Part shown: positions 3,243 through 23,642 of the stretch, piece by piece
Numbering within the stretch: position 1 is the stretch's first letter
Layout of the letters: each line of letters opens with the position of its first letter
DNA from: a virus
Length of the DNA: 26,114 nucleotides
IMG/VR virus record: IMGVR_UViG_3300006749_000101
Coordinates: 1 to 26,114 of that record
Direction: 5' to 3' (one strand)
Notes under the pieces: generated by a model
Seen by the model: the letters and a program-made list of their open reading frames with translations, nothing else
Databases searched by the model: none
What the model was told of the DNA's origin: nothing
Program-made: the position numbers and the translations under genes

Positions 3243-3425
3243 ATGAAAGATACAAACCAACTGACAAAAGATTTAAGTGCCGTTTGGCATGCGCTTGAAT
3301 GTTATCGTGAGGATTCAATTCCAGAGGGGATTGAAGAGTCGTGGGACGAGGAGTGGGATGAAATCTGCACGGCTATGGCTCACATTCATGAGGCACTAGA
3401 CATAACACATGAGGAAATTGGATGA
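3243..3425 (+). CDS. Very acidic 60-residue early protein
   Basis: The start at ATG 3243 is set by the strong AAGGAGGTGCATTGAC upstream. The in-frame start at 3204 lies within the previous gene. The protein has about 17 Asp/Glu against 3 Lys/Arg in 60 residues, concentrated in the ESWDEEWDE segment. It is predicted mainly helical. Size, charge and early position recall DNA-mimic antirestriction proteins such as Ocr, but no sequence match is claimed. Its stop overlaps the methyltransferase start by 4 nt (ATGA), which couples the two genes. Confidence 0.78.
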   Translation: MKDTNQLTKDLSAVWHALECYREDSIPEGIEESWDEEWDEICTAMAHIHEALDITHEEIG

Positions 3426-4525
3426 GACACGTTGATTTGTGTTCGGGCATTGGAGGTTTCGCACTTGGTTTCGAGTGGGCGGGATTATCCAAGCCCGTTT
3501 TGTTTTGCGACATAGAACCTTGGAGTCGCAAGATTATTAGAAAACATTGGCACGATGTGCCGATAGCAGAAGACGTAAAGGAATTAGCTAATGACCCAGA
3601 AAGAACTGTTCCCGATTGTGAAATCCTCACAGCCGGATACCCCTGTCAACCATTCTCGCAAGCAGGAAAACGCAAAGGCGAAGAAGACCCTCGCCACATC
3701 TTCCCGTACATTATGCAAATTGTTGCATCCAAAAGACCCTCTTGGTGCGTTTTCGAAAACGTTTACGGGCATGTCAGCATGGGACTCGACACTGCGCTCA
3801 CTGCAATGGAGGCAGAAGGTTACGCCACGAGGTCGTTTATTATTCCAGCTGTATCCGTCGGAGCACCCCATAGAAGAGACAGAATCTTCATCGTCGGACG
3901 ATTTATGGGCGACACCGAACACGATGGATCACCTGCCGCAACGCTCGGACGAAGCACTCATGAGGCAAGCAACGACGAGCCGCAAGGGAAGGAAACGCCC
4001 AGGAAATCTAAGGGAACAGGTGGACGAGAGGACGGCAGCAATGTGGCCCACCCCGACGGCGATGACGGGGGGCACGGGAGTAGCACCGAGTCACAAGGAA
4101 GGAAAGCACGGGTGGAACATAGGGGCGGCGGTGAACGACAGCCTGTCAGACAACCCGACCAGAATGTGGCCCACTCCAACGACGAGGGATTACAAGGGAA
4201 TGTCGGGCAAAGGGCGGCAGGAACGCAAGGGCAATCCAGCGGACACGTTACCCAACGCGGTAGCAATGTGGCCCACCCCGACAGCGAACGAAGATGCGGC
4301 GGGGACACCCAACGGCAAGATGCAGAAGATGTTGGGCAACCACCCAGAGATTCGTGGAGCGTCACCGGAGGAGTGGAAACGTGGGGCGTTGAACCCGACG
4401 TGGGTAGAGTGGCTAATGGGATACCCAAAAGGGTGGACAGAATTAGAGGACTAGGCAATGCCATTGTCCCACAGATAGCAAAACAAATTGGATTAGCAAT
4501 AAAGGAAAGCATAGGACATGAGTAA
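3422..4525 (+). CDS. C5-cytosine DNA methyltransferase
   Basis: This 367-residue enzyme transfers a methyl group from S-adenosylmethionine to carbon 5 of cytosine. The conserved motifs are in order: motif I (DLCSGIGGF, residues 5-13), motif IV with catalytic Cys75 in GYPCQPFS, motif VI (ENV, 112-114), motif VIII (GAPHRRDRIF, from residue 147), and motif X (RIRGLGNAIVPQIA, about 342-355). The region between VIII and X, where target recognition normally sits, is low-complexity, rich in Gly, Asp, Arg and Gln, with NVAHPD or NVAHSN repeats. It looks unlike a folded recognition domain. The same DNA carries a second long frame (3591-4454). Modification probably protects phage DNA from host restriction. 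The target sequence cannot be read here. It is coupled to the preceding acidic gene by ATGA. Confidence 0.92.
   Translation: MRHVDLCSGIGGFALGFEWAGLSKPVLFCDIEPWSRKIIRKHWHDVPIAEDVKELANDPERTVPDCEILTAGYPCQPFSQAGKRKGEEDPRHIFPYIMQIVASKRPSWCVFENVYGHVSMGLDTALTAMEAEGYATRSFIIPAVSVGAPHRRDRIFIVGRFMGDTEHDGSPAATLGRSTHEASNDEPQGKETPRKSKGTGGREDGSNVAHPDGDDGGHGSSTESQGRKARVEHRGGGERQPVRQPDQNVAHSNDEGLQGNVGQRAAGTQGQSSGHVTQRGSNVAHPDSERRCGGDTQRQDAEDVGQPPRDSWSVTGGVETWGVEPDVGRVANGIPKRVDRIRGLGNAIVPQIAKQIGLAIKESIGHE
3577..3582 (+). promoter_or_regulatory. Ribosome binding site for the nested frame
   Basis: AAAGGA lies eight bases before the ATG at 3591, within the methyltransferase coding sequence. It is as good as the ribosome sites of neighbouring genes, so internal initiation is plausible. 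Confidence 0.55.
3591..4454 (+). CDS. Nested +1-frame MWPTPT-repeat protein inside the methyltransferase gene
   Basis: This 287-codon frame lies entirely within the methyltransferase gene, shifted by +1. It starts at an ATG with AAAGGA eight bases upstream. Visible parts are a basic N-terminus, a VTPRGRLLFQLYPSEHP segment near residue 80, a WATPNTMDHLP segment, three MWPTPT repeats (Met at 151, 192 and 226), and a C-terminal NPTWVEWLMGYPKGWTELE. I recognise this style as a recurrent phage protein family of unknown function. The MWPTPT repeats are the shifted reading of NVAHPD, and WVEWLMGYPKGWT is the shifted reading of the GRVANGIPKRVDR stretch before motif X. Repeat-to-repeat differences are mostly silent in this frame. 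No enzymatic motif is seen. It could still be a shadow frame whose relatives in databases are also artefacts. Confidence 0.6.
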   Translation: MTQKELFPIVKSSQPDTPVNHSRKQENAKAKKTLATSSRTLCKLLHPKDPLGAFSKTFTGMSAWDSTLRSLQWRQKVTPRGRLLFQLYPSEHPIEETESSSSDDLWATPNTMDHLPQRSDEALMRQATTSRKGRKRPGNLREQVDERTAAMWPTPTAMTGGTGVAPSHKEGKHGWNIGAAVNDSLSDNPTRMWPTPTTRDYKGMSGKGRQERKGNPADTLPNAVAMWPTPTANEDAAGTPNGKMQKMLGNHPEIRGASPEEWKRGALNPTWVEWLMGYPKGWTELED

Positions 4526-9382: not shown

Positions 9383-10912
9383 ATGGACAATGTTCAAAAG
9401 TTCATGGCGGCATTTCGTGGATTTGATGGCGCACATGGACAGACAGTTATTACGGGAGGGCGTGTAAATGGTAAATCAGAAGCCAAAACGCGAATCATCC
9501 GGGAGCCGATCACGGCAGAAAAAATCCAAGAACACTTCGATGGTGGAAAAGGTATCGGTAGTATTCCTATCAATGCTAACAATCAGTGCTCTTTCGGTTG
9601 TATTGATATTGACACCTATCCTTTGGATCATGCTGATCTTGTTGGCAAGTGTAGGCAACTGGATATTCCAGGCATTGTCTGTAGATCCAAAAGCGGTGGG
9701 GCGCACATTTACTTCTTTATCGATGGTGAAATTCCTGCGGCGGATATGCGGGACAAGCTATCGGAAATTGCAGCAGTTCTGGGACAAGGTAACGCAGAAA
9801 TATTTCCCAAGCAGGAAAAACTCCTTGTCGAAAGAGGCGATGTCGGAAACGCTATCAACCTTCCCTATCATGATGTCGAACGCACTCTCCGTCCCGCGTT
9901 CACAAACAAGGGAAAGGAGGCGACTCTACAGCAGTTTCTGGCAATGGTGGAGAAGTCGCGTAAAACACCTAGCGAATTTATGTCTATCCAAGTTTCGGGC
10001 GGCAGTGAAATACTTGTCGAAGCTCCGCCGTGCTTAGAGTGTCACGTTCGCAATGGAGTGGGACAAGGCGGTAGGAACTGTGTGGCGTTTAACCTCGCTA
10101 CATATTTCAAGAAGCAGAATCCGAAGCAGTGGAAGCAGGACATAGAGTCTGCCAACCATTCGTATTTCAAGCCACCGCTTCCTGCATCTGAGCTCGTCAC
10201 TATCCAGGATCAGATAGAAAAGAAAGATTATTTCTATCAGTGCACCGAGCCGCAACTCGCTATGCACTGTAATAAAAACCTGTGTCGTCAACGCAAGTAC
10301 GGCATCGGCAACAGTGCTCGAAGCGTCGAGATTACTGGTCTGACAGTCGTGAAGTCAGAGCCTCGTATATGGTTTGTCGATGTGGCGGGTGCACGTCTTG
10401 AACTCACAACAGAGCAACTACAAATGCCCACGCAGTTTCAACGTGCTTGCATGGAGCAACTCAATTTCATGCCACCAAAACTCAAAGAGGACACATGGCA
10501 GACAGTTGTAAACGTAGCACTTACCGAAGTCGTCGAGATTGAAGTTCCGGTTGAACTGACAAACAAAGGGCAGTTCATGGAGTTACTCGAGAACTTCTGT
10601 ACAGGACGAGTCCAAGCGCAGTCATGGGAAGAGTTAGATCTTAACAAACCATACACAGAAGAGGGGCGTACTTATTTTAAAATGGCGGCATTGATAAATT
10701 TTCTGAAGGCACAAAACTTTCTTACTTACACCAAGGGGCAAGTGCAGGAACGTATCAAAGAATTGAACGATGGTGAGGCATCACACCAAGTTAAAAACTA
10801 CAACAACTCTAAGGCTGAGAAAAAGACGGTGAGAGTTTGGTCTGTTCCCGAGTTCAAAGAACCCATTGATATTCCTGGCATCAATGTCGGTGGAGAGGAG
10901 ATCCCGTTTTGA
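9383..10912 (+). CDS. Archaeo-eukaryotic-type (AEP) primase
   Basis: This 509-residue protein makes primers, and possibly extends them, for phage DNA synthesis. AEP motifs are visible: the metal-binding DID at residues 75-77, SKSGGAH with His108 shortly after, and then EIFPKQ and GNAINLPYH, similar to primases of the TOTE type. After the catalytic domain comes a segment with four spaced cysteines: Cys217 (PPC), Cys287 (YQC), Cys296 (HC) and Cys301 (LC). A GxGQGGRN stretch and PPLP also occur there. That layout recalls the PriL-like iron-sulphur C-terminal domain of primases. The last 130 residues are unassigned. It overlaps the following helicase by a TTGA junction. No DnaG/DnaB-type gp4 is present in the window. 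Confidence 0.85.
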   Translation: MDNVQKFMAAFRGFDGAHGQTVITGGRVNGKSEAKTRIIREPITAEKIQEHFDGGKGIGSIPINANNQCSFGCIDIDTYPLDHADLVGKCRQLDIPGIVCRSKSGGAHIYFFIDGEIPAADMRDKLSEIAAVLGQGNAEIFPKQEKLLVERGDVGNAINLPYHDVERTLRPAFTNKGKEATLQQFLAMVEKSRKTPSEFMSIQVSGGSEILVEAPPCLECHVRNGVGQGGRNCVAFNLATYFKKQNPKQWKQDIESANHSYFKPPLPASELVTIQDQIEKKDYFYQCTEPQLAMHCNKNLCRQRKYGIGNSARSVEITGLTVVKSEPRIWFVDVAGARLELTTEQLQMPTQFQRACMEQLNFMPPKLKEDTWQTVVNVALTEVVEIEVPVELTNKGQFMELLENFCTGRVQAQSWEELDLNKPYTEEGRTYFKMAALINFLKAQNFLTYTKGQVQERIKELNDGEASHQVKNYNNSKAEKKTVRVWSVPEFKEPIDIPGINVGGEEIPF

Positions 10913-12429
10913 CAAGCAATCGTGCACCAACCGCCATAGTCGGACCGCCGGGAACAGGCAAAACACATAGCTTAATCGAGATTGTGCGTCAACATTTGCG
11001 TGATGGCGCACCACCGGAATCTGTGGGTTTCTTTTCGTTCAGTCGTAAGGCGGCAGAAGAGGCAAGAGACAGGGCTATTGCTGAACTAAGCCTAGACCCA
11101 AAACGTTTGCTACACTTCAGAACGTTACACTCTCTAGCGTTTCGTCAGCTTGGCTTGAAGCGCAGTGATGTTATCGGATCACCAGATTACACAAAGCTTG
11201 AAAAGATGCTGGGCGTTGAGTTCCAAAGTTCACGGAGCATGAGTGTGAATGACGGTGAGTTCTTTCGTTTGGGGCGTGACGGAGACATGTATCTGTCCGT
11301 GATTAACATGGCTAGAACTAAAGGCGTTGGTCTGAGAGAACAGTTTAACGAGTTCAACAATCCATATCTTGACTTCCGTCAGCTTAAAATCATAGACGAA
11401 GCATACACGGACTACAAAAAGTCGACCAACAAGATTGATTTTGTAGACATGATTGAAAACTTTATTGACTCACCTGATTGTCCAAAACTTGATTTGCTTA
11501 TTGTCGATGAAGCGCAAGACCTTGTGCCGTTGCAGTGGGAAATGGTGGACAAGCTTATCAAAAACTCAAAGCAGACTTACTATGCAGGGGATGACGACCA
11601 AGCCATTTACGAATGGATGGGCGTTGATCCAGATAACTTTATCTCTCGTTGTGCAAGCAAACGAGTCTTAGACCAAAGCTTCCGTGTGCCAAAAGCGGTG
11701 CATGACTTGTCACTGGACTTGATAAAAGGTGTAGAGAAACGTGTTGAGAAGGATTGGAATCCTGTCAGTCACGAAGGATCTGTGTCGTTTCATTTCGCGC
11801 TGGACGAGATAGACATGCGAGAAGGCGAGTGGTTGATACTCTGTCGTACCAATCACATACTCAACAAAGTAGCCAAGGATATGAAAGATTGGGGCTTACT
11901 GTACTGGCGTGAGGGTGCGGGGTACAGTGCCTCGACCAGAGTGCTTACAGCGGCTCAAGCATGGACACGACTTTGTCGTGGTGACTCTGTATCGAAAGAA
12001 GAGGCAAAAGTTTTTATGTCATTTGTTCGTGTAGATAAGACAACTCGCAAGGCTGTAGACCACTGGTTTAAGTATGAGCCGACGGAAACATTCACTATGG
12101 ACAACTTCCGTGAACTAACTAGTTTAAATCATGACGGCAAGAAATGGTTCGAAGTTCTTGATATTCCTGACACAGAACGAGTGTACATACAGTCTGTGTT
12201 ACGAGCAGGAGAGAAGTTTGGAAAAGACCCCAGGATCAGACTGTCGACGATACACAAGGCAAAAGGCGGTGAAGCAGACAATGTTGTTCTGTTCCTAGAC
12301 TCGAGTAAAGCGTGTCAAACACTGTCAGATCAAGACTGCGAGAAACGTGTTTTCTATGTTGGTATGACAAGAGCACGGCAAAACCTACACCTGATAGAAG
12401 GTTCTAGTAGATGGAGTTTTAAGATATGA
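10909..12429 (+). CDS. UvrD/Rep-like SF1 DNA helicase
   Basis: This 506-residue protein unwinds DNA from single-stranded regions using ATP. Walker A is GPPGTGKT (Lys18), Walker B is VDEAQD (Asp200-Glu201), motif III is AGDDDQAIYEW, motif V is LSTIHKAKGGEADNVVLF, and motif VI is FYVGMTRARQNLHL. It is shorter than UvrD (about 720 residues), as phage versions often are. The start is a TTG at 10909, chosen because GGAGAGGAG ends 8 nt upstream and because TTGA overlaps the primase stop. No ATG occurs near the conserved N-terminus. It overlaps the polymerase gene by ATGA, so primase, helicase and polymerase form one coupled unit. Confidence 0.9.
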   Translation: MTSNRAPTAIVGPPGTGKTHSLIEIVRQHLRDGAPPESVGFFSFSRKAAEEARDRAIAELSLDPKRLLHFRTLHSLAFRQLGLKRSDVIGSPDYTKLEKMLGVEFQSSRSMSVNDGEFFRLGRDGDMYLSVINMARTKGVGLREQFNEFNNPYLDFRQLKIIDEAYTDYKKSTNKIDFVDMIENFIDSPDCPKLDLLIVDEAQDLVPLQWEMVDKLIKNSKQTYYAGDDDQAIYEWMGVDPDNFISRCASKRVLDQSFRVPKAVHDLSLDLIKGVEKRVEKDWNPVSHEGSVSFHFALDEIDMREGEWLILCRTNHILNKVAKDMKDWGLLYWREGAGYSASTRVLTAAQAWTRLCRGDSVSKEEAKVFMSFVRVDKTTRKAVDHWFKYEPTETFTMDNFRELTSLNHDGKKWFEVLDIPDTERVYIQSVLRAGEKFGKDPRIRLSTIHKAKGGEADNVVLFLDSSKACQTLSDQDCEKRVFYVGMTRARQNLHLIEGSSRWSFKI

Positions 12430-14381
12430 GCCAGATAAGTTTCATAAACAGAATGGATGGCACAAAAGAAGAGATCGAAAGCGATATTAAAGAGGTAGCC
12501 ACAGGTGCGTTAGACTCCGATTGGTCGCCTCCTGCGTCGTTCCCGGATCACTACAAAGAAGCCAAAGTAATATCTATTGACTTAGAAACCCGTGACCCAA
12601 ACCTAATGACATTGGGACCAGGTTGGGCGAGAGACGACGGCTACATTATTGGATACGCTGTCGCTTTCAACAACTTCTGTGGGTACTACCCTATCCGACA
12701 TGAGGGTGGTGGTAATCTGCCAGAGGCGGCAGTGACAGGTTACATCAAAGAAATGATGGCGACTAACATACCCAAGGTCATGCACAACGCTCAGTACGAT
12801 GTCGGTTGGATGCGTTGGGCGGGCATCGAAGTCAACGGTGTCATCAACGATACAATGACTGCTGCGGCTATGCTTAACGAGAACAGGCGGTGGTACAACT
12901 TGAACTCTCTTGCCATTGATTATCTTAACGAAAGCAAGAATGAGAAAGCCATGAAACGTGCGGCGGCAGACTACGGTGTTGATCCGAAGGCTGATATGTG
13001 GCGACTGCCAAGCCGATTTGTAGGCGAGTATGCAGAGCAAGATGCAAGTGTCACGCTTCGCCTATGGGAGTTATTGAGCCGTGAGATGGATAAAGAAGAG
13101 GTGCGTAGCATCTTTGATCTTGAGACAGAACTCACACGTTTACTTATCGACATGCGTTGGCGTGGTGTGCGTGTTGATTTGGAAGCCACAGAGAACACAC
13201 GGACTGAGTTAGAAAAGCGTGAGAAGAAACTCCTAGCAAGTATAAAGAAGGAAACCGGGTTAGACATAGAACCTTGGAACCCAACGTCTATTAGCAAACT
13301 GTTTGATTGGCATGAGTTAAAGTATCCCAAAACGGATAAGAGCCAAGCACCAAGTTTCACGAAACAATTTTTGGCGGCACACCCTCATCCAGTAGCACAG
13401 CAGATACTCAGGCTTCGAGAATTTAATAAAGCAAACACAACATTCATCGAGAACATACTCAAATTTGAACATAAGGGGCGCATACATGCAGAGTTTCATC
13501 CACTTCGTTCTGATGACGGCGGCACTGTCACTGGGCGGTTCTCTTCATCAAACCCAAATCTCCAGCAAATTCCAGCACGAGATCCTGAGATTAAGTCTCT
13601 TATCAGAGGATTGTTCTTGCCAGAAGAGGACGAGAAGTGGGCAAGCTTTGACTACGCATCACAAGAGCCTCGTTGGTTAGCGCATTACTGTGCGTCTTTA
13701 AAAGGCGCAAACAGGCACGAGCAGATAGACAGTGTGATAACCGCATACCATGAAGGGGATGCAGATTTTCACCAAATGGTTGCGGATATGGCTGGTATCA
13801 CTCGTAAGAACGCAAAGACAGTCAATTTAGGCATCATGTATGGTATGGGTGTAAACAAACTGGCAGGAGTCTTGGATGTTGACGTAGACTCTGCAAAGGA
13901 ACTACTCGAAGAATACCATGAGAAAGTTCCGTTTGTTAAAGGACTAGCCAATGCTGTCCAAGGTAAAGCGGAACGTGATGGTGTTATTCGCACGATCCTG
14001 GGACGTAAGTGTCGTTTCGATATGTGGGAGCCCCGCAGATATGGGTTACACAGAGCACTGCCACTGGAAGAAGCCTTGCGAGAGCATGGTCCCAAAGGCA
14101 ATATCAAACGTGCGTTTACATACAAAGCATTGAACCGATTGATTCAAGGCTCGAGCGCAGACCAGACCAAGAAAGCTATGGTAGACTTGTACAAAGAAAA
14201 CATCGTGCCTCTGCTCACAGTGCATGATGAACTGTGTTTCAGTATTGAATGTGACGAAGAAGGCAATCTCAACGAGGATCAGATGAGAGAGATTGCGATA
14301 ATTATGGAGAACTGTATTGACGCAACCGTGCCGTTTAAAGTTGACATTGCAGTTGGTGATAATTGGGGGCAGATAGATTGA
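12426..14381 (+). CDS. Family A DNA polymerase (PolA-like)
   Basis: The 651-residue phage replicative polymerase has a 3'-5' proofreading exonuclease followed by a polymerase domain. The exonuclease is of the DEDDy type: DLE (Asp52, Glu54), HNAQYD (Asp125) and YAEQD (Tyr202, Asp206). The polymerase has motif A SFDYASQEP (Asp409), motif B RKNAKTVNLGIMYG (Arg460, Lys464, Tyr472) and motif C HDE (600-602). The residue that corresponds to E. coli Phe762 is leucine (Leu468). Published work on viral PolA links Leu here with slower, possibly temperate, lifestyles, whereas Tyr is typical of lytic T7-type phages. There is no 5'-3' nuclease domain. It overlaps the helicase gene by ATGA. Confidence 0.95.
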   Translation: MSQISFINRMDGTKEEIESDIKEVATGALDSDWSPPASFPDHYKEAKVISIDLETRDPNLMTLGPGWARDDGYIIGYAVAFNNFCGYYPIRHEGGGNLPEAAVTGYIKEMMATNIPKVMHNAQYDVGWMRWAGIEVNGVINDTMTAAAMLNENRRWYNLNSLAIDYLNESKNEKAMKRAAADYGVDPKADMWRLPSRFVGEYAEQDASVTLRLWELLSREMDKEEVRSIFDLETELTRLLIDMRWRGVRVDLEATENTRTELEKREKKLLASIKKETGLDIEPWNPTSISKLFDWHELKYPKTDKSQAPSFTKQFLAAHPHPVAQQILRLREFNKANTTFIENILKFEHKGRIHAEFHPLRSDDGGTVTGRFSSSNPNLQQIPARDPEIKSLIRGLFLPEEDEKWASFDYASQEPRWLAHYCASLKGANRHEQIDSVITAYHEGDADFHQMVADMAGITRKNAKTVNLGIMYGMGVNKLAGVLDVDVDSAKELLEEYHEKVPFVKGLANAVQGKAERDGVIRTILGRKCRFDMWEPRRYGLHRALPLEEALREHGPKGNIKRAFTYKALNRLIQGSSADQTKKAMVDLYKENIVPLLTVHDELCFSIECDEEGNLNEDQMREIAIIMENCIDATVPFKVDIAVGDNWGQID

Positions 14382-14869: not shown

Positions 14870-15255
14870 TAATACGACCAGATTGTTGGGCGACGTTCGT
14901 TATCAAGATCGTCCAGGTGTATAAAGCGTGAGCCGAAGTCTCCCTTCTGAGCTATGCCAACACCTGTGAAGTCTCCGCTGTCCAAGGCAAGTTGCAGAAC
15001 GCTGAGTGCATCTGCCCCGGAGACAGCAATGTCCACTGCTCTCCCGCTTGCGTGTGCACCCGGTTTGGTTTTACGAGCTTCGATAGGATGGTTAGGACAA
15101 CGATAGCCTGAACTAATTGTCATGCCTCTGCCGTAGGTTGACCGAAGGTTTTGTATCTTATGCACGAAGTCCAACTCAATTCCCTCTGAGCCACAGTGCT
15201 GGCAAGTAAACTCACCCGCAGAAAAGTTTTCAAACTGCGTCCAATCCTTTTCCAT
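14869..15255 (-). CDS. M15-family peptidase, endolysin
   Basis: This 128-residue enzyme matches the Peptidase_M15_3 pattern: SSGYRCPNHP (48-57), HASGRAVDI with zinc ligands His68 and Asp75, and FIHLDD with ligand His113. A CxxC pair (Cys18, Cys21) sits in the N-terminus. The family is D-alanyl-D-alanine carboxypeptidase-like or L,D-endopeptidase, which cleaves peptidoglycan cross-bridges. No signal peptide is present, so release would depend on a holin, consistent with the TM gene directly downstream. It follows the giant virion protein gene with a 1-nt junction. Confidence 0.9.
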   Translation of the reverse strand: MEKDWTQFENFSAGEFTCQHCGSEGIELDFVHKIQNLRSTYGRGMTISSGYRCPNHPIEARKTKPGAHASGRAVDIAVSGADALSVLQLALDSGDFTGVGIAQKGDFGSRFIHLDDLDNERRPTIWSY

Positions 15256-18200
15256 TATGCTCTTCCTAATCTTTTAGCGAGTTCCATGTTTCGCGCTTGT
15301 TCAATCGGGTTATCACCTAAAACGTCTAAATCTAACGGTGTCTGTAGTCCGGTAGCGGTGGGTAATGGGGCGACGGCTGGTGCGCTAGGCGACGAGAGAG
15401 CCTGTGACAAAACAGGAACATTTGATGTTTGACTCACTGTTGGTCTAAGCGGTGTTACTGGTTCCGGTTCTTCAAAAAGTGGGAACGGTTCATCCAAACG
15501 AACTTGTTTAAGTTGTCTGTCTGAGATTCTATTTAAATCTGATCTAAGAACAGCTAGATCTCTAGCGGGAAGAACTCGACCCTGACCTTCTCTTTGTTCT
15601 CTCTGAGCTTCTTCTACTAAACTATACCCTATCCTTAACGGTTGAAACTTACCTTTAAGAATTTGATTTACGTCTTTCGCACCAATGCCACGCCCTTTTG
15701 CTTTTCTTCTAATATCGCGGTCACTAAGACCAAGACTCTTTGCCGCTTCAAAATCAAGAAATAGATCTTGTTGTAGTCTAAATAAATCTTGGTTGGCATC
15801 CACCCAACCGTTTATAATATCTTCTTCAGAAGCATCATTAGCTCTGAATATTCTACTTAACTCTGGCGCAGGTCCATCGTTTCTAAACTTGGCATAAGCC
15901 GAAGATGAAAACTGAACCTGGTTGTTAGCATCAAGAGTCAAGCTACGAGCGCCAAGTGTATTAGCCATTATTTCTTCGTATAGATCAAACTCTCTGCCGT
16001 AAGCTGTTGGAGTTTCTGTCGCTGCTCTTGTGATTTTACCGGGGACAACACCTCGGTCTGCTCTGATTGTTACAAAGTTATCAACGATAGACGGGTTCAT
16101 CGCACCTAAAATATGGCGCATACTTTTAACCATTTTCTCATATCCATCGTCAGCTTGGTCATATACTTCCGCACCTGTTCTGCGCCGACCACCACGTCCG
16201 AAACCTGCTACACTAACCACGTCAGCAACACGTTCCGACAATAACGCTTCTTCTGTAAATGGTTGTGCTAGTTTCCCAATAAAAGTAAAAGCACCATCAG
16301 CTATTTTCTGAATCTCACCTTTACCCAATGCCTCACCTTTTGAGTAAGCCTCAAGAGCCGCTTTCGCTGGAGCCACCGCAGAATCATACGGGGCATAGTA
16401 ACTGATAGGCATGTACTGCATTTTACCGTCTTTAGGTTTGGTTAAAGGAACCATAACCTGACCCTCATAGAAATAAGGCTTGAGTTTATCCAACCCTTTT
16501 CTTTCTCCCTCGGTAAGACCGAGCGCGGCAGACGCACCAGCGGCAATTGCAGGACTAACGCCAGCGGCTGTTGTGACATAACCTGTTAATCTCTTTGCAC
16601 CGATAGCATTGATTTCACGTTGTAGACGCTGTGCTGCTTTCTTTCCTATTTTTTCAACTATGTCGTCGGTAGCACGGAAAGAAATTTCTGCCGCACCTTG
16701 GCGGACAATGTTGTAACTGTTACGAATGACCTCTGCACTAAAGCCTACAAAGTTACCAGCAACAGGTAATCGAGCCGCCATCTTTGCAATACGAGGTATG
16801 CGACTATAAACAGGCATGACATCCTTAACAATGTCCGCAGTCCATGTGTCAAAGAAATTGTCACCGTGAATATTACTTTTACGTTTTGCTATTCCTTGAG
16901 CGATTAAATCATCCGCAACCAGATCCCAATCAGATGCTTTAATTACTGCTTGTCCTGTTTCATCAAGGACAGAGTTACGAAGTGCGGCAGCATAACGAGC
17001 TCTTTCAGAAATAAAAGCGTTCATCTTCCAGAGGTTGTCCGCAAAAGCGTAACTGGTTTGAAGTCCTTTAATGGGTGCACCTGCTGTTTTAGCGGCGGCT
17101 TCTGCACCCGGAATGTTTTTAGCGGCATCTGTAAGCTTTTCCGTAAAGCTGACCACACGCCTTCCGCCTCTTTCTGCTTCTCGTAACGTGCCTCGTAATG
17201 TGTCTTGCATCTCTTTAACGAGAACACTGTCCTCAAGTAAACCGTTACGCATAGCTAGTTGATAAAAGTTCACAAAGTCTTCTTCGCGCATATTAGCCAT
17301 CTTTGCGGCGGATATATCAAAAGCATCAAAGATGTCTCCTGCTCGTGGCATGTGACCGTTAGCTGTGCCAAAGAAAACTCCAGAGGCATAGTTACGAGCT
17401 TGAGCCATTGTACTGAACACAGTCTTTGAAATTTGTGACGCACCTTTAGCTTGAATACCTAATGCCCACATATTACCAAGAGCAGTTCTGGCGATAGGAC
17501 GAGTGGTTAAAGCATCGTATAATTCTTTTTTAACAAAGTTGCCGCCTAAGACACCGAACTGACCACCAAAAATAGATCGTTGTGCAAGCGGGACTTGAAC
17601 ATACAGTGTGTTTGTTAAACGTTTTGCTAATTCAGGAGACTTCTGAGTAAGCTCTACCATGTCCTCTGCTTTTATAATCAGTGGTGTAGCAGCCCCCTCG
17701 TCCAAACCTTTAATAATATCATCTGCTGTGCCTGTGATACTAGAGTTATTCAAAAGTTCGTTGTAGAGTCTTGAGGAACCAGCCAAACCAGCCATGTCCG
17801 TAATTGTTTGTAGGTATCGAGTAACGGCTGCATTACGTCCTGTTTTCACTTCTCCCATCAATTCACGAAGCATAGGAGAAGCTTCTAGAATTGGGCTTCG
17901 ACTTTTTAAAAGATCTTCGGAAACCTTATACAAAGGCACTGCTTCACCTAAAAACCGTGCACCTGCTGCGTGTACTCTTGATGATTTTTCAACTTGTTTT
18001 TCTAGGTTTTCTGTCCCTGCCTTTGTTAAACCTTCAATCGAAAGACGGTCTGTTATACCAACTCGATCTTTAACAATGTTATCGAGAACATATTGTTCTG
18101 CGGTTTGTCTTAAAAGTCCCTGAGACTCAAGATCTCTTATTTCTTGACCACCATTTTTAGTGAGGTATGTTTCGACCTCATCAACAGCAGTCTTAAACTT

Positions 18201-19640
18201 ATCTGTTTGTATGATGTTTCTAAGGTTTTTACGATCTATACCGCCTGTGTACATTCGGCGTAAATATGCGTTTTCGCGTTTTTCAAACGCTTTACGCATC
18301 CCCTCATAAACCTGCTGGGCTGTTCTTATTACTTTTCCATCTGGTCCGAGTTCATCTCTAATATCGCCGTTTTTGTACGCTGTAGTAAGTTGATCGTAGA
18401 TTTGTTCAGAAAGATTATTACGAGCCGCAGCAAGCTGTCTCGCAGAGTTTCGCACATTGTCAGTGTACGCATTTAAGGCTGTCTCATCACCATCCAGATA
18501 CTTAATCAAATCATCATACGCCGCTTGATACTGTGCCTTACCTTTTCCAAATAAGGGCATCGAGCCAACTGTTGCGCGAACTTCTTTGTCGTAGCTTGAT
18601 AAAAGTTTAGCCGCAACTTTTGTCTGTCCTTGAACTCCGCTTCCCGTATCAAGAATACTTTCAGAAAGTTCTTTTTCCAACAGCCCTGCGGTGGTAAAAA
18701 ACTTTTTGAAATTTGTTGTGTTGAACACTGGAATTTTATCTGCTTGTTCCGCTAAAACATCAAAGCCCCTACCTATTGCTGCTGTAGCAGGAGCAATTAC
18801 AGGGTTAGCTACAACACCCGCACCGCCAATAGCGGCTCCTGCGACAGGTAAGGCAAAGTCAACCGCAGCACCTATAGCAAGACTTTCACCAGCAATACGA
18901 AGTTTGTTACGAAGCCTTCGAGCTACTTCGTCTCTCCCGGTAAACCCCATGTCTTCCTCTGTTTCGAGAAAATCCGGCAAAGCATCGAAGTGATCAGACA
19001 TCGTAGACACACCGTCTGGTGCAACCATAAAGTCCGCTGTGGCAGTGGCTCCGGTTGTAACAAGTCCTCGTTTAAGATCATATAAACGACGTGTAGCAGG
19101 ACCCGCACCTTCTCCCGCAAGAAGAGCCTTACCTGCGGCACTATCACCAAAAGTTTCCGCTGCTTTACCAAAACGAGTTTTCGATGTACCAACGGCTCGT
19201 GTACCACGAGCAACTTTACCAGCAGTGTTCATCCAGCCGACTACGGGGATAGATGTAGTGGCGAACAAACCAAGAAGTTCTGCCATTTCTCCTGCTTGCG
19301 TTTCAGGATTCACACCAAGTCGATCTCTCAACTGACCTGTAAAAGCATCAAGGTCGCGTAAGGTATCATCGTCTGCGAGTGCATCATACAAACCAAAACC
19401 AAGCGAAGCTAGTCCTTCCGGCACACCAATTAAAGTTCCTGATACAACCCCCTTAAACACATCACCTAACACACTAACGTCTTGAGTTGTTCCTTTGATC
19501 GGATTAGGATTGCGAATAGAAGGAGTTGCAATCAGACCTCTTTCAGAAATACTTTTCTTTAATTCAGAAGCGGCTGATGTCTCTTTGTTTTCAACAAAGC
19601 CTCTTTGTCTTATTAATTCTTGAAGTTCTTCAGGGGTCAT
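15255..19640 (-). CDS. Giant 1461-residue virion protein, presumed ejected
   Basis: This is the largest product of the window. It is rich in Ala, Gly, Lys and Arg. A predominantly helical N-terminus is followed by hydrophobic Gly/Ala-rich stretches (for example around residues 60-160 and 245-290, GESLAIGAAVDFALPVAGAAIGGAG). Long charged helical segments follow in the middle (LRKAFEKRENAYLRRM-type), and a Gly/Ala hydrophobic stretch near residues 1015-1045 (YVTTAAGVSPAIAAGASAALG). Such large proteins next to tail hub genes in marine podoviruses are internal virion proteins that are ejected to form a DNA translocation channel. No lysozyme or transglycosylase active site is recognised. The role is from gene position and composition. 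It is preceded by the 19656-20936 gene with a 15-nt gap. Confidence 0.75.
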   Translation of the reverse strand: MTPEELQELIRQRGFVENKETSAASELKKSISERGLIATPSIRNPNPIKGTTQDVSVLGDVFKGVVSGTLIGVPEGLASLGFGLYDALADDDTLRDLDAFTGQLRDRLGVNPETQAGEMAELLGLFATTSIPVVGWMNTAGKVARGTRAVGTSKTRFGKAAETFGDSAAGKALLAGEGAGPATRRLYDLKRGLVTTGATATADFMVAPDGVSTMSDHFDALPDFLETEEDMGFTGRDEVARRLRNKLRIAGESLAIGAAVDFALPVAGAAIGGAGVVANPVIAPATAAIGRGFDVLAEQADKIPVFNTTNFKKFFTTAGLLEKELSESILDTGSGVQGQTKVAAKLLSSYDKEVRATVGSMPLFGKGKAQYQAAYDDLIKYLDGDETALNAYTDNVRNSARQLAAARNNLSEQIYDQLTTAYKNGDIRDELGPDGKVIRTAQQVYEGMRKAFEKRENAYLRRMYTGGIDRKNLRNIIQTDKFKTAVDEVETYLTKNGGQEIRDLESQGLLRQTAEQYVLDNIVKDRVGITDRLSIEGLTKAGTENLEKQVEKSSRVHAAGARFLGEAVPLYKVSEDLLKSRSPILEASPMLRELMGEVKTGRNAAVTRYLQTITDMAGLAGSSRLYNELLNNSSITGTADDIIKGLDEGAATPLIIKAEDMVELTQKSPELAKRLTNTLYVQVPLAQRSIFGGQFGVLGGNFVKKELYDALTTRPIARTALGNMWALGIQAKGASQISKTVFSTMAQARNYASGVFFGTANGHMPRAGDIFDAFDISAAKMANMREEDFVNFYQLAMRNGLLEDSVLVKEMQDTLRGTLREAERGGRRVVSFTEKLTDAAKNIPGAEAAAKTAGAPIKGLQTSYAFADNLWKMNAFISERARYAAALRNSVLDETGQAVIKASDWDLVADDLIAQGIAKRKSNIHGDNFFDTWTADIVKDVMPVYSRIPRIAKMAARLPVAGNFVGFSAEVIRNSYNIVRQGAAEISFRATDDIVEKIGKKAAQRLQREINAIGAKRLTGYVTTAAGVSPAIAAGASAALGLTEGERKGLDKLKPYFYEGQVMVPLTKPKDGKMQYMPISYYAPYDSAVAPAKAALEAYSKGEALGKGEIQKIADGAFTFIGKLAQPFTEEALLSERVADVVSVAGFGRGGRRRTGAEVYDQADDGYEKMVKSMRHILGAMNPSIVDNFVTIRADRGVVPGKITRAATETPTAYGREFDLYEEIMANTLGARSLTLDANNQVQFSSSAYAKFRNDGPAPELSRIFRANDASEEDIINGWVDANQDLFRLQQDLFLDFEAAKSLGLSDRDIRRKAKGRGIGAKDVNQILKGKFQPLRIGYSLVEEAQREQREGQGRVLPARDLAVLRSDLNRISDRQLKQVRLDEPFPLFEEPEPVTPLRPTVSQTSNVPVLSQALSSPSAPAVAPLPTATGLQTPLDLDVLGDNPIEQARNMELAKRLGRA

Positions 19641-19655
19641 ATCAGAACCTATCGG

Positions 19656-20936
19656 TTAAGTTATTGTTTGCTGTTTGTTTCTGCGCTCACGGCGAGAAGT
19701 TGCTGACCCAATTACATTAGTTCTGTTTCTCTTTTCACGAGCATCAAAAAGTCTTTCCGCTATTGTTTTTTCAAGATCGTCTATTCTACTGTCGATTGTT
19801 GTTATGTCTTTGTTTTTCTCAAGGAACTCTACTCTGTTACCTTTTAGTCTTTCAAGACTGCTCAAAGATTTTCTTAAAAAAGCATCCCTTTTTGTAAACT
19901 CTTCTGGAATTTTTGAAGGATCTTCAAGCATTGATTGAAGATCTTCTACACTCTCGGTAGTTGTAGTGGTTTCAGAAGGAGGAGGAGTTTTAGGAGCAGC
20001 ACCTATAATAGCTGAAGTTAAAACTTGAGCAGTATTTGGATCAACAGCAAAAACCTCTCTATCGCCATTTTTATTTATTTCTTCCATAATAAAGACAGGT
20101 TGATTAGCAGAAATACCCGCGTCTATCCCATATTTGTCGAGTGCTTCTTGTGCAGTAATCCTTGCGACTACTTTGTCACTTGCTGATAAAGTGTTTGCAA
20201 TGGCTGTTGGGCGATCCTCCCCTTTAGCCGTTGTTGATTGTGTAACGGTAGCAAGAAGGCCCCGAACACTATCTGGGCTTACTCCTATGTCGTCAAGGAA
20301 GCGTTCGGTAGCACTACCTGCTCCAAGACCGTCTCTTAAAATAGCTTCATTAAAAACGGCTTGTTCATTTTCTGTTAATGTAGACTTCCAAGCTTCCAAA
20401 GATTGAGCAACACCGTCTTCTCCGATAACTTTGTTATCAGAAGTTAAACGTCCACCGAGTGCAAAAATAGCGTTTTGCACTCTTGTTGGTGGTTTTTCAG
20501 ACGCTTGTTTTTGAAGCTCAAATTGTTCTTCTCGGAGCTCTGCGGCACGACGTTGACGCTCTATGCCCTCAATGTCCGCGAGTCCTTTCGCAACGCGAAG
20601 CTGTCGTGCTTCTTCTTCTTTTCTTCGGCTACCAGCTTGATCAAAAGCTCCTGTAAGACCCGCAATTGCAGCATCTGTTGTGCCAAGTTGAGGGTTGACC
20701 AAGGCAGACTTAGCCATATTAATACCCAAATCGGTTAAGAAGTTTCCTGGTCTTTGCCGTGTTGCTTGTTCCATCAACATTCTTTGATACTCAGCTAAAG
20801 CGTCTACGGATCCACCAACGTTCATACGAAGAGGCTCAACCTGATTCATCAACTCTTGTGATGATGCAAGAATACCAGCGGCTTTACGAGCAGAGCCGGG
20901 GCGACGAAACATTCTACGATTTGAACCTTTAACCAT
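19656..20936 (-). CDS. Helical structural protein
   Basis: This 426-residue protein has a basic start (MVKGSNRRMFRRPGSARKAAG), a strongly helical, charged first half with a coiled-coil-like stretch (about 105-145, RRKEEEARQLRVAKGLADIEGIERQRRAAELREE), and a second coiled-coil region near the C-terminus (RDAFLRKSLSSLERLKGN). The pattern resembles inner-core or ejection proteins of podoviruses. It is co-transcribed with the giant protein gene. A single base separates it from the upstream Gly/Ala-rich gene, and AGAGGATAGA precedes its ATG. The virion role is inferred from context. Confidence 0.7.
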   Translation of the reverse strand: MVKGSNRRMFRRPGSARKAAGILASSQELMNQVEPLRMNVGGSVDALAEYQRMLMEQATRQRPGNFLTDLGINMAKSALVNPQLGTTDAAIAGLTGAFDQAGSRRKEEEARQLRVAKGLADIEGIERQRRAAELREEQFELQKQASEKPPTRVQNAIFALGGRLTSDNKVIGEDGVAQSLEAWKSTLTENEQAVFNEAILRDGLGAGSATERFLDDIGVSPDSVRGLLATVTQSTTAKGEDRPTAIANTLSASDKVVARITAQEALDKYGIDAGISANQPVFIMEEINKNGDREVFAVDPNTAQVLTSAIIGAAPKTPPPSETTTTTESVEDLQSMLEDPSKIPEEFTKRDAFLRKSLSSLERLKGNRVEFLEKNKDITTIDSRIDDLEKTIAERLFDAREKRNRTNVIGSATSRRERRNKQQTIT

Positions 20937-20937
20937 T

Positions 20938-22215
20938 CTATCCTCTGCCTAAATTCTCTAAGCCATAACCAAGAGCCGCGATTCCCGCACCAGTTAACGC
21001 TGCCCCCGTGTTTGGTTGCGGAGTAGCTGGACGTGAACCAACGCTCAGTGCTGTTTGTGTATACGGCACACCTTTCAAAATATCAGAACGAATTTGAATT
21101 GCTTTAAATGGATCCATAACGGCAGCTAACTGATCACCATACAAAGCTTCCTTTAGACGTTGTTCTGCACTTGCTTCTAAACCACCCAACGCTGTCAATG
21201 TTTCAATATCTAAAGCTCCAAGACCCGAGACTCGTGCGGCGAGATCAGATTGTGCTCCGCCTAAACCACTAAACATTCCGCCAGCATCGCCAAGAATACC
21301 CGCACCAAGTTCAGTTCCTGCAAGACCTGTTGTGATGCCTTTCAGACCCAGTTCTCCTGCACCTAATCCAAGACGACCAGCTTCTGCTAATGAACCAAGA
21401 CCTAATTGATTAGCAGACAAGAACCGTGCCTGTTGATCCTCAAACGCTTTTTGCGCCCTTGATGCAGCAGACTCAAAGCCAGCACGTCTAAGTTCAGCAG
21501 CAGTTTGTGCTTTTTGTTCAAGAGTTGCTCTATCAAGTTCAGCGTCCATAACAGCCGCACGACTACCACCAAAACCTCCTGCTCGGGTTGCCTCTGCACG
21601 TTGTCTGTTACGAGCAATATCTGATTCACGCTGAATGTCTGCAAGACTCTGATCAATTACGTCCTGTGTAAACGGACTCATAAAATCACTAACACCCGTA
21701 GGATCAAACGCTTTCGCTCCACCTGCTTCAAGCCCGCCCGCAATACCTGCAATATCCGAAGCTAGACCCATACCAAGTCCAACAGAAGGTTGTGCAGCAC
21801 CTGTTGCCGCCGCGCCCAAACCAGAAGCAGTATCCGCTAATCCGCTAAGTTGATCGGCAGTTGCACCAGCACTACCATAATAAGACGAAGCAAGATCAAG
21901 ATAAGGCTGATACGAACCAATACCTCCAACACCAGCAAGCAATGCCATTTCTTGTGTAGGCGATAACCCTGTTACGAATGGAGACCTTTTTGGAGTAAAG
22001 AAAGGTGTTGCCGTTGAAGCTTCTGCCAGATCAGCCAACAATTTGTTTTGTTCTGCTTCTGCTGCTGGGTTGACAACAGGAATATTTAGACCAATTTGAG
22101 CGTCGTCACCAAGTCCAGCAATCAAACCTTTTAATGACTCGTATGTTGTAGGTGGAGCGGACTCTCCTGTATTTTGTTGTGTGTATTGAAAAGGATCAAA
22201 ATTAAGCTCGGACAT
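20938..22215 (-). CDS. Gly/Ala-rich structural protein
   Basis: This 425-residue protein is dominated by Ala, Gly and Leu (AGGLEAGGAKAF, GAGELGLKGITTGLAGTELGAGILGDAGGMF), with a charged coiled-coil segment near residues 190-265 (IQRESDIARNRQRAEATRAGG and QKAQTAAELRRAGFESAASRAQKAFEDQ). The tail is Gly-rich. This composition is frequent in inner virion or tail proteins of marine podoviruses. The start is supported by AAAGGAG before the TAATG junction with the upstream gene. No known catalytic motif is seen. Confidence 0.7.
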   Translation of the reverse strand: MSELNFDPFQYTQQNTGESAPPTTYESLKGLIAGLGDDAQIGLNIPVVNPAAEAEQNKLLADLAEASTATPFFTPKRSPFVTGLSPTQEMALLAGVGGIGSYQPYLDLASSYYGSAGATADQLSGLADTASGLGAAATGAAQPSVGLGMGLASDIAGIAGGLEAGGAKAFDPTGVSDFMSPFTQDVIDQSLADIQRESDIARNRQRAEATRAGGFGGSRAAVMDAELDRATLEQKAQTAAELRRAGFESAASRAQKAFEDQQARFLSANQLGLGSLAEAGRLGLGAGELGLKGITTGLAGTELGAGILGDAGGMFSGLGGAQSDLAARVSGLGALDIETLTALGGLEASAEQRLKEALYGDQLAAVMDPFKAIQIRSDILKGVPYTQTALSVGSRPATPQPNTGAALTGAGIAALGYGLENLGRG

Positions 22216-23642
22216 TATGCGGCTCCTTTTTCAAGTTTATTCATCAACGCGTACATTTTTGCGGCTCCTTTTTCACGGTTTCCGCCACCTGCATTACGAA
22301 CAGCCTTCGCTGTCATTACAAATTCACCGTCCGATAACAATGCTGGCACACTGTCTGATGTGCCTGTTCCGGGTCCGACTATCTCGCCGCCGTCATTCAA
22401 GCCCACTGTTTCACGACGTTGTTTATAAAACTCGCCAAATTTCTGAGCTTGTTCAGCATAACGTGGGTCGCCACTTGTGCCCATTAATTGTTGTACAATT
22501 AGTTCTTGTTGTTCTGGTGACAGCTTTCTTACCTCTTCCATTTCTTCTGAGCTAAGTATACCACTCAACAGTGCTAGTCCGCCTACAGGTATAGAAGCGG
22601 CTCCTACAAAATCGCCAAAGCTGTTTTTAAGAGTAATGTTGTCGATAAACTCGTCGGTTCCTTCTCCAAGTTTCTTGGTAAATCGTTGCATGAAACCAAG
22701 TTCTGAGTCAGGTGTGGCTGCTGGCGTGACTGCCTCTTCAAGGTTTAAACCACTAGTGACATTTATAGGGTCTGAACTACTTCCTCCCAAGTTTAAACCA
22801 CCAGTGACATTTATAAGGTCTGGAGTACTTCCTCCCAAGTTTAAACCACCAGTGACATTTATAAGGTCTGGAGTACTTCCTCCCAAGTTTGTACTTAAAG
22901 CATCGACAGTTATATCTTTAGCGTCAATATTAAGATCAGGTAAAAGATCTTTCACTTGTTGATCCATAATAGAAATTTCTTCTGCGCCGATGTCTGGTAG
23001 CTCGTTTATTTCTACAGGCACGGCAGCAGGAATAGTGTCCACCTTTGCACCGAACAAGTTCTGTGCGCCTTTTGTTAAGCTACCAACGCCCCTTTCTATT
23101 GATTCTGAAACCGTTTTACCAGGACCCGTTTGTAACAATCCTGAAACTGCTGCTTGTTTCAAAGCTCCTCTTAGAGCGTCATCTGTCTCTATACCACGAG
23201 CTTTGTCTACGGCGAAGTTACCAGCGGCTTGTGCCATTATTCTTTGTGTGGTTGACAGTGAATCTATGCCACCTATCTGAGCACCTAGATATGCTTTACC
23301 ACCTGCGAACAGAGCATCTTCAGTTGATGCCCCCTCTAATTTTGCTAAACCAGCAGCAGTTGCCGCACCCAACGCAGGATTAACACTTCCCACGACCAAA
23401 GGTAAAACAACCGCAGCAACCTTACGAAGTTCTTTTGGTACAACTTTACGGAAAAGACTTCCCAATCCATACTGAGGCACACCCATTGCACGAAGACGTT
23501 CGGCTAGTTCCTCTTGTCCTCCTGCAAGACTTTCAATACCCATTGGAGAATTTGGATTAGTGACAGCAAACTGCCCTACAGCCGCCTGTGCGTCCATAGG
23601 TAAGGTTGCCATAATTCCAGTGGGTTGTGCGCCATAAATCAT
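22215..23642 (-). CDS. Structural protein with 16-residue tandem repeats
   Basis: This 475-residue protein has a hydrophobic Ala-rich part near residues 75-100, then a linker with three tandem copies of NLGGSTPDLINVTGGL (or close variants). The C-terminal segment contains GTSDSVPALLSDGEFVMTAKAVRNAGGG, a signature I recognise from many phage tail or structural proteins, together with MYALMNKLEKGAA. The start overlaps the next upstream gene by ATGA. A 16-bp direct repeat (22218-22233 and 22260-22275) encodes the KGAA-type ends. It is probably part of the tail or internal virion. No enzymatic motif is visible. Confidence 0.75.
   Translation of the reverse strand: MIYGAQPTGIMATLPMDAQAAVGQFAVTNPNSPMGIESLAGGQEELAERLRAMGVPQYGLGSLFRKVVPKELRKVAAVVLPLVVGSVNPALGAATAAGLAKLEGASTEDALFAGGKAYLGAQIGGIDSLSTTQRIMAQAAGNFAVDKARGIETDDALRGALKQAAVSGLLQTGPGKTVSESIERGVGSLTKGAQNLFGAKVDTIPAAVPVEINELPDIGAEEISIMDQQVKDLLPDLNIDAKDITVDALSTNLGGSTPDLINVTGGLNLGGSTPDLINVTGGLNLGGSSSDPINVTSGLNLEEAVTPAATPDSELGFMQRFTKKLGEGTDEFIDNITLKNSFGDFVGAASIPVGGLALLSGILSSEEMEEVRKLSPEQQELIVQQLMGTSGDPRYAEQAQKFGEFYKQRRETVGLNDGGEIVGPGTGTSDSVPALLSDGEFVMTAKAVRNAGGGNREKGAAKMYALMNKLEKGAA
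22743..22886. repeat. Three 48-bp tandem repeats in a coding sequence
   Basis: The unit is 48 bp (16 codons). Copies start at 22743, 22791 and 22839, with four bases of a fourth copy at 22887. The copies at 22791 and 22839 are identical, so the array is recent. The copy at 22743 differs at several sites. All copies remain in frame, so the array varies protein length. Confidence 0.9.

Follow-up and report, generated by a model that had tools for sequence, protein, structure and literature searches.

Cytosine-5 DNA methyltransferases are not always single chains with a single target. In the SPbeta group, M.SPRI and M.Phi3TI are multispecific phage methyltransferases with tandem recognition modules of about 40 residues between motifs VIII and IX. 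M.EcoHK31I and M.EaeI are two-polypeptide cytosine-5 methyltransferases, and the smaller open reading frame (ORF) of M.EcoHK31I overlaps the larger one in another frame. According to a secondary source, the larger subunit of M.EcoHK31I has motifs I–VIII and X as well as the target recognition domain (TRD), and motif IX is on the smaller polypeptide (PMC3404938). The beta subunit of M.AquI carries motifs IX and X, and the small domain of cytosine-5 methyltransferases holds the variable recognition region together with motif IX (PMC3404938). ShiLan-type actinophage methylases contain an out-of-frame HNH insertion (PMC11855218).

The locus described here lies in a window of 26,114 nucleotides of viral DNA, this being the whole stretch that was analysed, and is formed by an outer ORF, alpha, and a nested ORF, beta (Table 1). 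In architecture its closest known relative is M.EcoHK31I, without a direct sequence comparison: the large subunit of the window likewise has motifs I–VIII and X and no motif IX, and its small subunit carries motif IX. The two differ in that the TRD of M.EcoHK31I is placed in the large subunit, whereas that of the window is in beta, judging from constraint and module homology, and takes the form of an array of shuffled modules; the family of the window is, in addition, phage-borne and very widespread. With M.AquI the locus shares the natural split and a small subunit that has the recognition sequence and motif IX, but motif X is in alpha, so that the combination of IX and X in the small subunit is not met; the AquI-like order, with motif X in the second subunit, occurs in relatives, i.e. 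locus L017 and phages Samy and Jumbo. The SPbeta enzymes are single chains, unlike the window, whose array belongs to a subunit encoded in the other frame (module sequences were not compared). ShiLan-type genes are similar in that a phage DNA methylase gene harbours a functional ORF in another frame, but there the ORF is a mobile homing endonuclease present in some genes, whereas the nested ORF of the window is taken to be part of the enzyme and is nearly universal in the family. No description of an overlapping or nested phage methyltransferase pair of this kind was found in the literature searched, which was open-access only. M.EcoHK31I already provides a precedent for motif IX being split off onto a second polypeptide; the recognition array in an overlapping frame, the sequence-free middle of the catalytic subunit and the wide occurrence in phages are new as far as these tools show.

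It is highly likely that alpha and beta together make up a single cytosine-5 DNA methyltransferase split into two subunits, the heterodimer and its activity being inferred without biochemical data. The nested gene very probably encodes the missing DNA-recognition half of the enzyme, built of interchangeable modules, and for this too there are no biochemical data.

Layout of the locus

As the nested ORF is in the +1 frame, its third codon positions are first positions of the outer frame, and outer third positions are nested second positions. Searches of viral contigs with the nested and the outer protein supplied 80 loci each, and beta was present in all 80 of those obtained with alpha. The frame offset is the same in 164/164 analysed loci, and the nested stop precedes the outer stop in 157 of the 159 loci having both stops in the contig. 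The four modules of the window's beta are 46, 41, 34 and 40 residues long. An antisense ORF of 184 codons (3958–4512, minus strand), with no Pfam match, is open across the same segment and is probably a by-product of double coding.

Table 1. Features of the alpha/beta locus, in window coordinates.
Feature	Position	Strand	Remarks
Alpha, outer ORF, 367 aa	3422..4525	+	C5 cytosine methyltransferase, motifs I–VIII and X, without motif IX
Alpha catalytic part, motifs I–VIII	3422..3904	+	pLDDT mostly >90
Alpha motif PCQ	3641-3649	+	In alpha catalytic part
Alpha motif ENV	3755-3763	+	In alpha catalytic part
Alpha motif RxR	3875-3883	+	In alpha catalytic part
Alpha spacer	3905..4426	+	Open, sequence unconstrained, predicted disordered; same DNA as beta modules and motif IX
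Alpha motif X (RIRGLGNAIVPQIA... helix)	4430..4519	+	Invariant residues; pLDDT >90 in last 17 residues
Shine-Dalgarno AAGGA	3578..3582	+	8 nt before nested ATG
Beta, nested ORF, 287 aa	3591..4454	+	+1 frame relative to alpha
Beta N-terminal segment	3591..3905	+	Overlaps alpha motifs IV–VIII; constrained in both frames
Beta module 1, type B, WATPNTMDHLP...NLREQV	3906..4043	+	Same module in Rothia phage Spartoi gp40
Beta module 2, type D	4044..4166	+	Headed by WPTPT repeat 1
Beta module 3, type A	4167..4268	+	Headed by WPTPT repeat 2; common to L082 though modules 1–2 differ
Beta module 4, type C	4269..4388	+	Headed by WPTPT repeat 3
Beta motif IX (LNPTWVEWLMGYPKGWTELED)	4389..4451	+	Tail-profile match to motif IX of single-chain methyltransferases

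Alpha as the probable catalytic subunit

Of the features that define a C5 methyltransferase (PF00145), alpha has motifs I, IV (PCQ), VI (ENV), VIII (RxR) and X. Its PF00145 match (E 2e-38) is restricted to residues 1–160 and covers positions 1–161 of the 324 of the family; the residues of motifs IV, VI, VIII and X are invariant in 52 alpha homologues, those of motif X being L344, G345, N346, A347 and P350. A TRD and motif IX in the same chain were not found in alpha, and an unconstrained, disordered stretch of about 175 residues separates the two sets of motifs instead. The structure model is confident for most of residues 1–165 and for the final helix and is disordered between them, with pLDDT <50 over most of 166–340 and neither helix nor strand in 166–336. 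It matches the catalytic domain and motif X of M.HhaI (about 190 residues aligned, Z about 23, rmsd 2.2–2.9). The partial PF00145 match, the alignment with M.HhaI and the disordered middle indicate that alpha has no small domain and, since it lacks motif IX and any conserved TRD, that it needs a partner. In the mechanism proposed, alpha would contribute cofactor binding and catalysis (motifs I–VIII) and the motif X helix, and its segment between VIII and X would be only an open, disordered spacer with a sequence dictated by beta.

Constraint switches between the frames

The initial annotation of the window had described three WPTPT repeats starting at 4041, 4164 and 4266, with four variable sites over their first 21 bases, three of them silent third positions of the nested frame and all of them altering residues of the methyltransferase frame, and had taken this as a hint of protein-level constraint on the nested frame. 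The description is accurate: the repeats are all in phase 0 of the nested ORF, the sites are at offsets 11, 14, 17 and 18, three of these are nested third (methyltransferase first) positions, and the outer peptides are the ones it gave. The fourth site is a nested first position (Ala/Thr), and there is an additional fourth module start at 3906, more diverged (WATPNT). Three sites out of four are not significant alone (binomial P = 0.11), and for this reason homologues were compared by codon position, as the annotation itself had proposed, with an excess at methyltransferase third positions or an even spread as the outcome that would refute it.

Substitutions were counted in 38 disjoint pairs of homologous loci of 85–99.5% identity. 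At outer positions 1/2/3 they amounted to 61/27/264 upstream of the nested start, 163/74/323 in the motif IV–VIII overlap, 440/135/74 in the module region (where these are nested third/first/second positions), 71/19/21 over the last 30 nested codons and 22/14/129 after the nested stop. In the same five regions, the pairs leaning to nested third versus outer third positions numbered 0:27, 1:28, 32:0, 15:0 and 1:18; all 32 informative pairs of the module region thus lean to the nested frame (sign test P = 5e-10), and the control flanks show the reversed pattern. The result was the same in three identity bands, and WPTP repeats compared within each of 106 genes gave 1001 third, 352 first and 311 second nested-position differences. 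Since the changes concentrate at nested third positions, the nested frame is under protein-level constraint in the module segment; the inference drawn from the three repeats is supported and the outcome that would have refuted it did not arise. What the initial annotation lacked was an identity for the nested protein and the need for the outer frame as an open spacer leading to motif X.

Changes that are silent in the nested frame are nearly free in the module region, whether or not they alter alpha, and in the motif IV–VIII overlap both frames are constrained. Position-wise counts for the window against L082 and L106 over the module region were left out of account, since they are invalid where the modules differ. 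Positive selection on alpha, to which NN/SN rate ratios of 1.9–3.1 in the segment might point, was rejected: SN changes fall on nested second positions, and the ratio therefore reflects constraint on beta.

Maintenance of both frames and the start signal of beta

Synonymous recoding of the outer frame produced a mean of 6.9 nested stops and recoding of the nested frame 20.8 outer-frame stops, with 0/5000 recodings of either kind leaving the other frame open. In the module region, T occupies the nested third position in 0.6% of the cases where an alpha stop would result and in 24.4% elsewhere; NTA codons account for 0/1259 in the core overlap where they would introduce a beta stop, and for 9.9% in the other context. 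Both frames are needed. These observations bear on the supposition that only the methyltransferase frame is coding and that codon or GC bias produces the whole pattern as a side effect. The nested similarity over motifs IV–VIII is indeed partly forced by alpha, and long chance ORFs exist, e.g. one of 160 codons inside the methyltransferase of Virus Rctr41k, but chance would not account for recodings that never stay open, for stop avoidance in both frames, for a codon-position pattern that flips exactly at the module region and then back, or for L017, in which the outer frame is the one that dies. This supposition deserves practically no credence and can be considered already refuted.

The nested start codon, among 148 loci, is ATG in 132, GTG in 13 and CTG in 2, and a Shine-Dalgarno (SD) sequence of the AAGGA type is present 5–9 nt upstream of it in 106 of 110 distinct loci. 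The Lys codon at the SD is AAG in all listed VK(E/V/D) loci, and elsewhere in alpha N-termini the count is 176 AAG to 94 AAA. The loci behind these counts are related, and the counts do not represent independent events. Beta would be translated from this internal ribosome-binding site of its own. It could be argued that the nested frame is instead reached by programmed frameshifting from alpha, giving a fused chain of motifs I–VIII, modules and IX, since the frames are +1 related and single-chain forms of the same order exist in actinophages. The conserved SD and start codon, however, are 300 nt upstream of the useful shift point, and the N-terminal segment of beta is constrained (for alpha-silent changes, the beta nonsynonymous/synonymous rate ratio is 0.29–0.40 in the IV–VIII overlap versus 1.2–2.8 in the non-overlapping flanks) and survives in the separate beta gene of locus L174; no dedicated slippery site was seen, in the absence of a systematic search. 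Frameshifting is considered quite unlikely, and translation from an internal start is the preferred reading.

Probable recognition modules and motif IX in beta

Beta homologues are present in at least 597 viral stretches. The window's beta matches phrog_1008 (E 4e-28) and has no Pfam or NCBIfam name. A conserved FxxTSxWxSTKCxLTWKxKATPQGRLLFQL is found in its N-terminal segment, the probable interface with alpha by inference; next come modules, mostly of 30–46 residues and opening with W(P/A)TP, N-terminal of motif IX, and the C-terminus is LNPTWVEWLMGYPKGWTEL. The best matches of a beta-tail profile were RLTPTECERLQGFPDGWTD of the single-chain Virus Rctr41k enzyme and its equivalent in Caulobacter phage CcrPW, both of which are motif IX and outscore every one of the 2000 shuffles made of each; taken by themselves, the matches of motif IX to fully canonical enzymes are weak (9–11 bits). 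Module 1 of the window recurs in gp40 of Rothia phage Spartoi, a single chain, with 50% identity over 40 aa (36 bits versus 22.7 for the best of 3000 shuffles); there it is in frame, preceded by motif VIII and followed by IX and then X. Several modules of this kind are also present in the single chains gp68 of Mycobacterium phage Ritam007 and gp4 of Gordonia phage Jabberwocky. On this homology, the four target-recognition-type modules of beta and its motif IX would constitute the DNA-recognition small domain. The structure model of beta is poor (mean pLDDT 59, pTM 0.27) and does not establish its fold, and a profile search against solved structures in the PDB gave nothing convincing (best E 1.2).

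Such a model, and the lack of a Pfam or NCBIfam name, would also suit an overprinted protein with an unrelated role, e.g. an anti-restriction protein or a regulator, that resembles motif IX by chance. This is highly improbable in view of module B and motif IX being in frame and in the right place in single-chain methyltransferases, of an alpha that is left without motif IX and a conserved TRD, and of natural variants in which IX and X move between frames.

Modules as exchangeable cassettes

Tandem modules between motifs VIII and IX, the criterion for a multi-TRD enzyme, number 2–6 in all but one of 114 arrays, and arrays differ by the gain, loss or swap of single modules. Between near-identical loci there are clean insertions of 102, 123 or 132 nt, each equal to one module, and L082 keeps the alpha N-terminus and modules 3–4 of the window with one different module in place of modules 1–2. 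A module is ≥88% identical in 100 locus pairs despite alpha N-termini of <70% identity, and in 81 pairs the alpha N-termini are ≥90% identical and the modules differ. Module types were defined by single-linkage clustering, which merges many modules into type A, so that the counts of module types are approximate.

This pattern of exchange, as read from the sequences, would be expected of swappable recognition domains. A separate DNA target for each module is inferred by analogy with what is generally known of multispecific SPbeta-type enzymes, with no methylation data. By cassette exchange, a phage could alter its methylation specificities or acquire further ones and evade restriction by the host, although this anti-restriction role is likewise inferred; phage cytosine-methylation specificity may be readable from, and changed by, short nested-frame modules. 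With a sequence-free spacer as the middle of the catalytic subunit, the modules can be swapped at will provided that the second frame stays stop-free. It is reasonably probable that this represents a common phage strategy, in which a modular multi-target specificity subunit is housed wholly inside, and out of frame with, the gene of a catalytic subunit whose middle is such a spacer.

Two loci have additional copies. At L044, after the ends of alpha and of the nested ORF, positions 3718–3960 hold one more nested-frame module, complete with a motif IX (WPTPTTRDYKGG...LNPDWVEWLMGYPIGWTDL); a cassette duplication seems to have left it behind or to have used it as donor. In plasmid pAP1 of Paenibacillus polymyxa (L210, 1293–2783), the long alpha (496 aa) has a repeated stretch (SYLGRVSDGLSVGLDK / SSLGRVLDGLSARLDQ), which suggests that the motif IX region was duplicated in the other frame.

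Natural architectures and distribution

The natural REARRANGEMENTS include (a) the single chains of Spartoi, Ritam007 and Jabberwocky; (b) two genes with motif X in the second, in Samy gp49/gp50, Jumbo and Clarenza gp78/gp77, Samy gp49 having motifs I–VIII and gp50 the modules, IX and X (phrog_1008, E 3e-49); (c) the fully nested form with X in alpha, represented by the window and by almost all of the viral loci retrieved; (d) nested modules with IX and X in the outer frame, in Arthrobacter phage MidnightRain and L200; (e) L017, closely related to the fully nested form, with X in beta and an alpha that ends after VIII, the former alpha frame having about 20 stops across the modules; and (f) L174 (2700–4223), where alpha is intact, stops have broken up the beta nested in it and a second intact beta, N-terminal segment included, occupies its own gene directly downstream. 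L174 is a natural replacement of the nested beta copy. In L017 and L174, going by their reading frames, one frame each has been knocked out in nature, with the outcome that the split-enzyme model predicts. In L219 (668–1600) and L200 (3441–3977), only recognition modules are in the nested frame, about seven of them in MidnightRain.

The family was found in at least 597 viral stretches, 75 phage records, 3 plasmids and 39 contigs assigned to bacterial MAGs. In the record of Paenibacillus phage Shelly the nested ORF is annotated as an internal gene of unknown function, and the record of phage Xenia omits it. The DNA methyltransferase label probably covers only half of an enzyme in hundreds of viral genes, the other half being absent from most annotations or filed under phrog_1008, which bears the name methyltransferase as well. 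Among natural examples of two overlapping genes the locus is a clean one: the frame under constraint changes along the sequence, and natural variants reveal the use of each frame.

Elsewhere in the window, a replication block (9383–14381) contains a primase related to the TOTE-system AEP (PF22548), a UvrD-like helicase and a family A DNA polymerase. On the minus strand (15255–23642), among virion and tail genes, there are a 1461-aa ORF that weakly matches a virion protein and two ORFs of about 425 aa for which neither PHROG nor Pfam gave a match.
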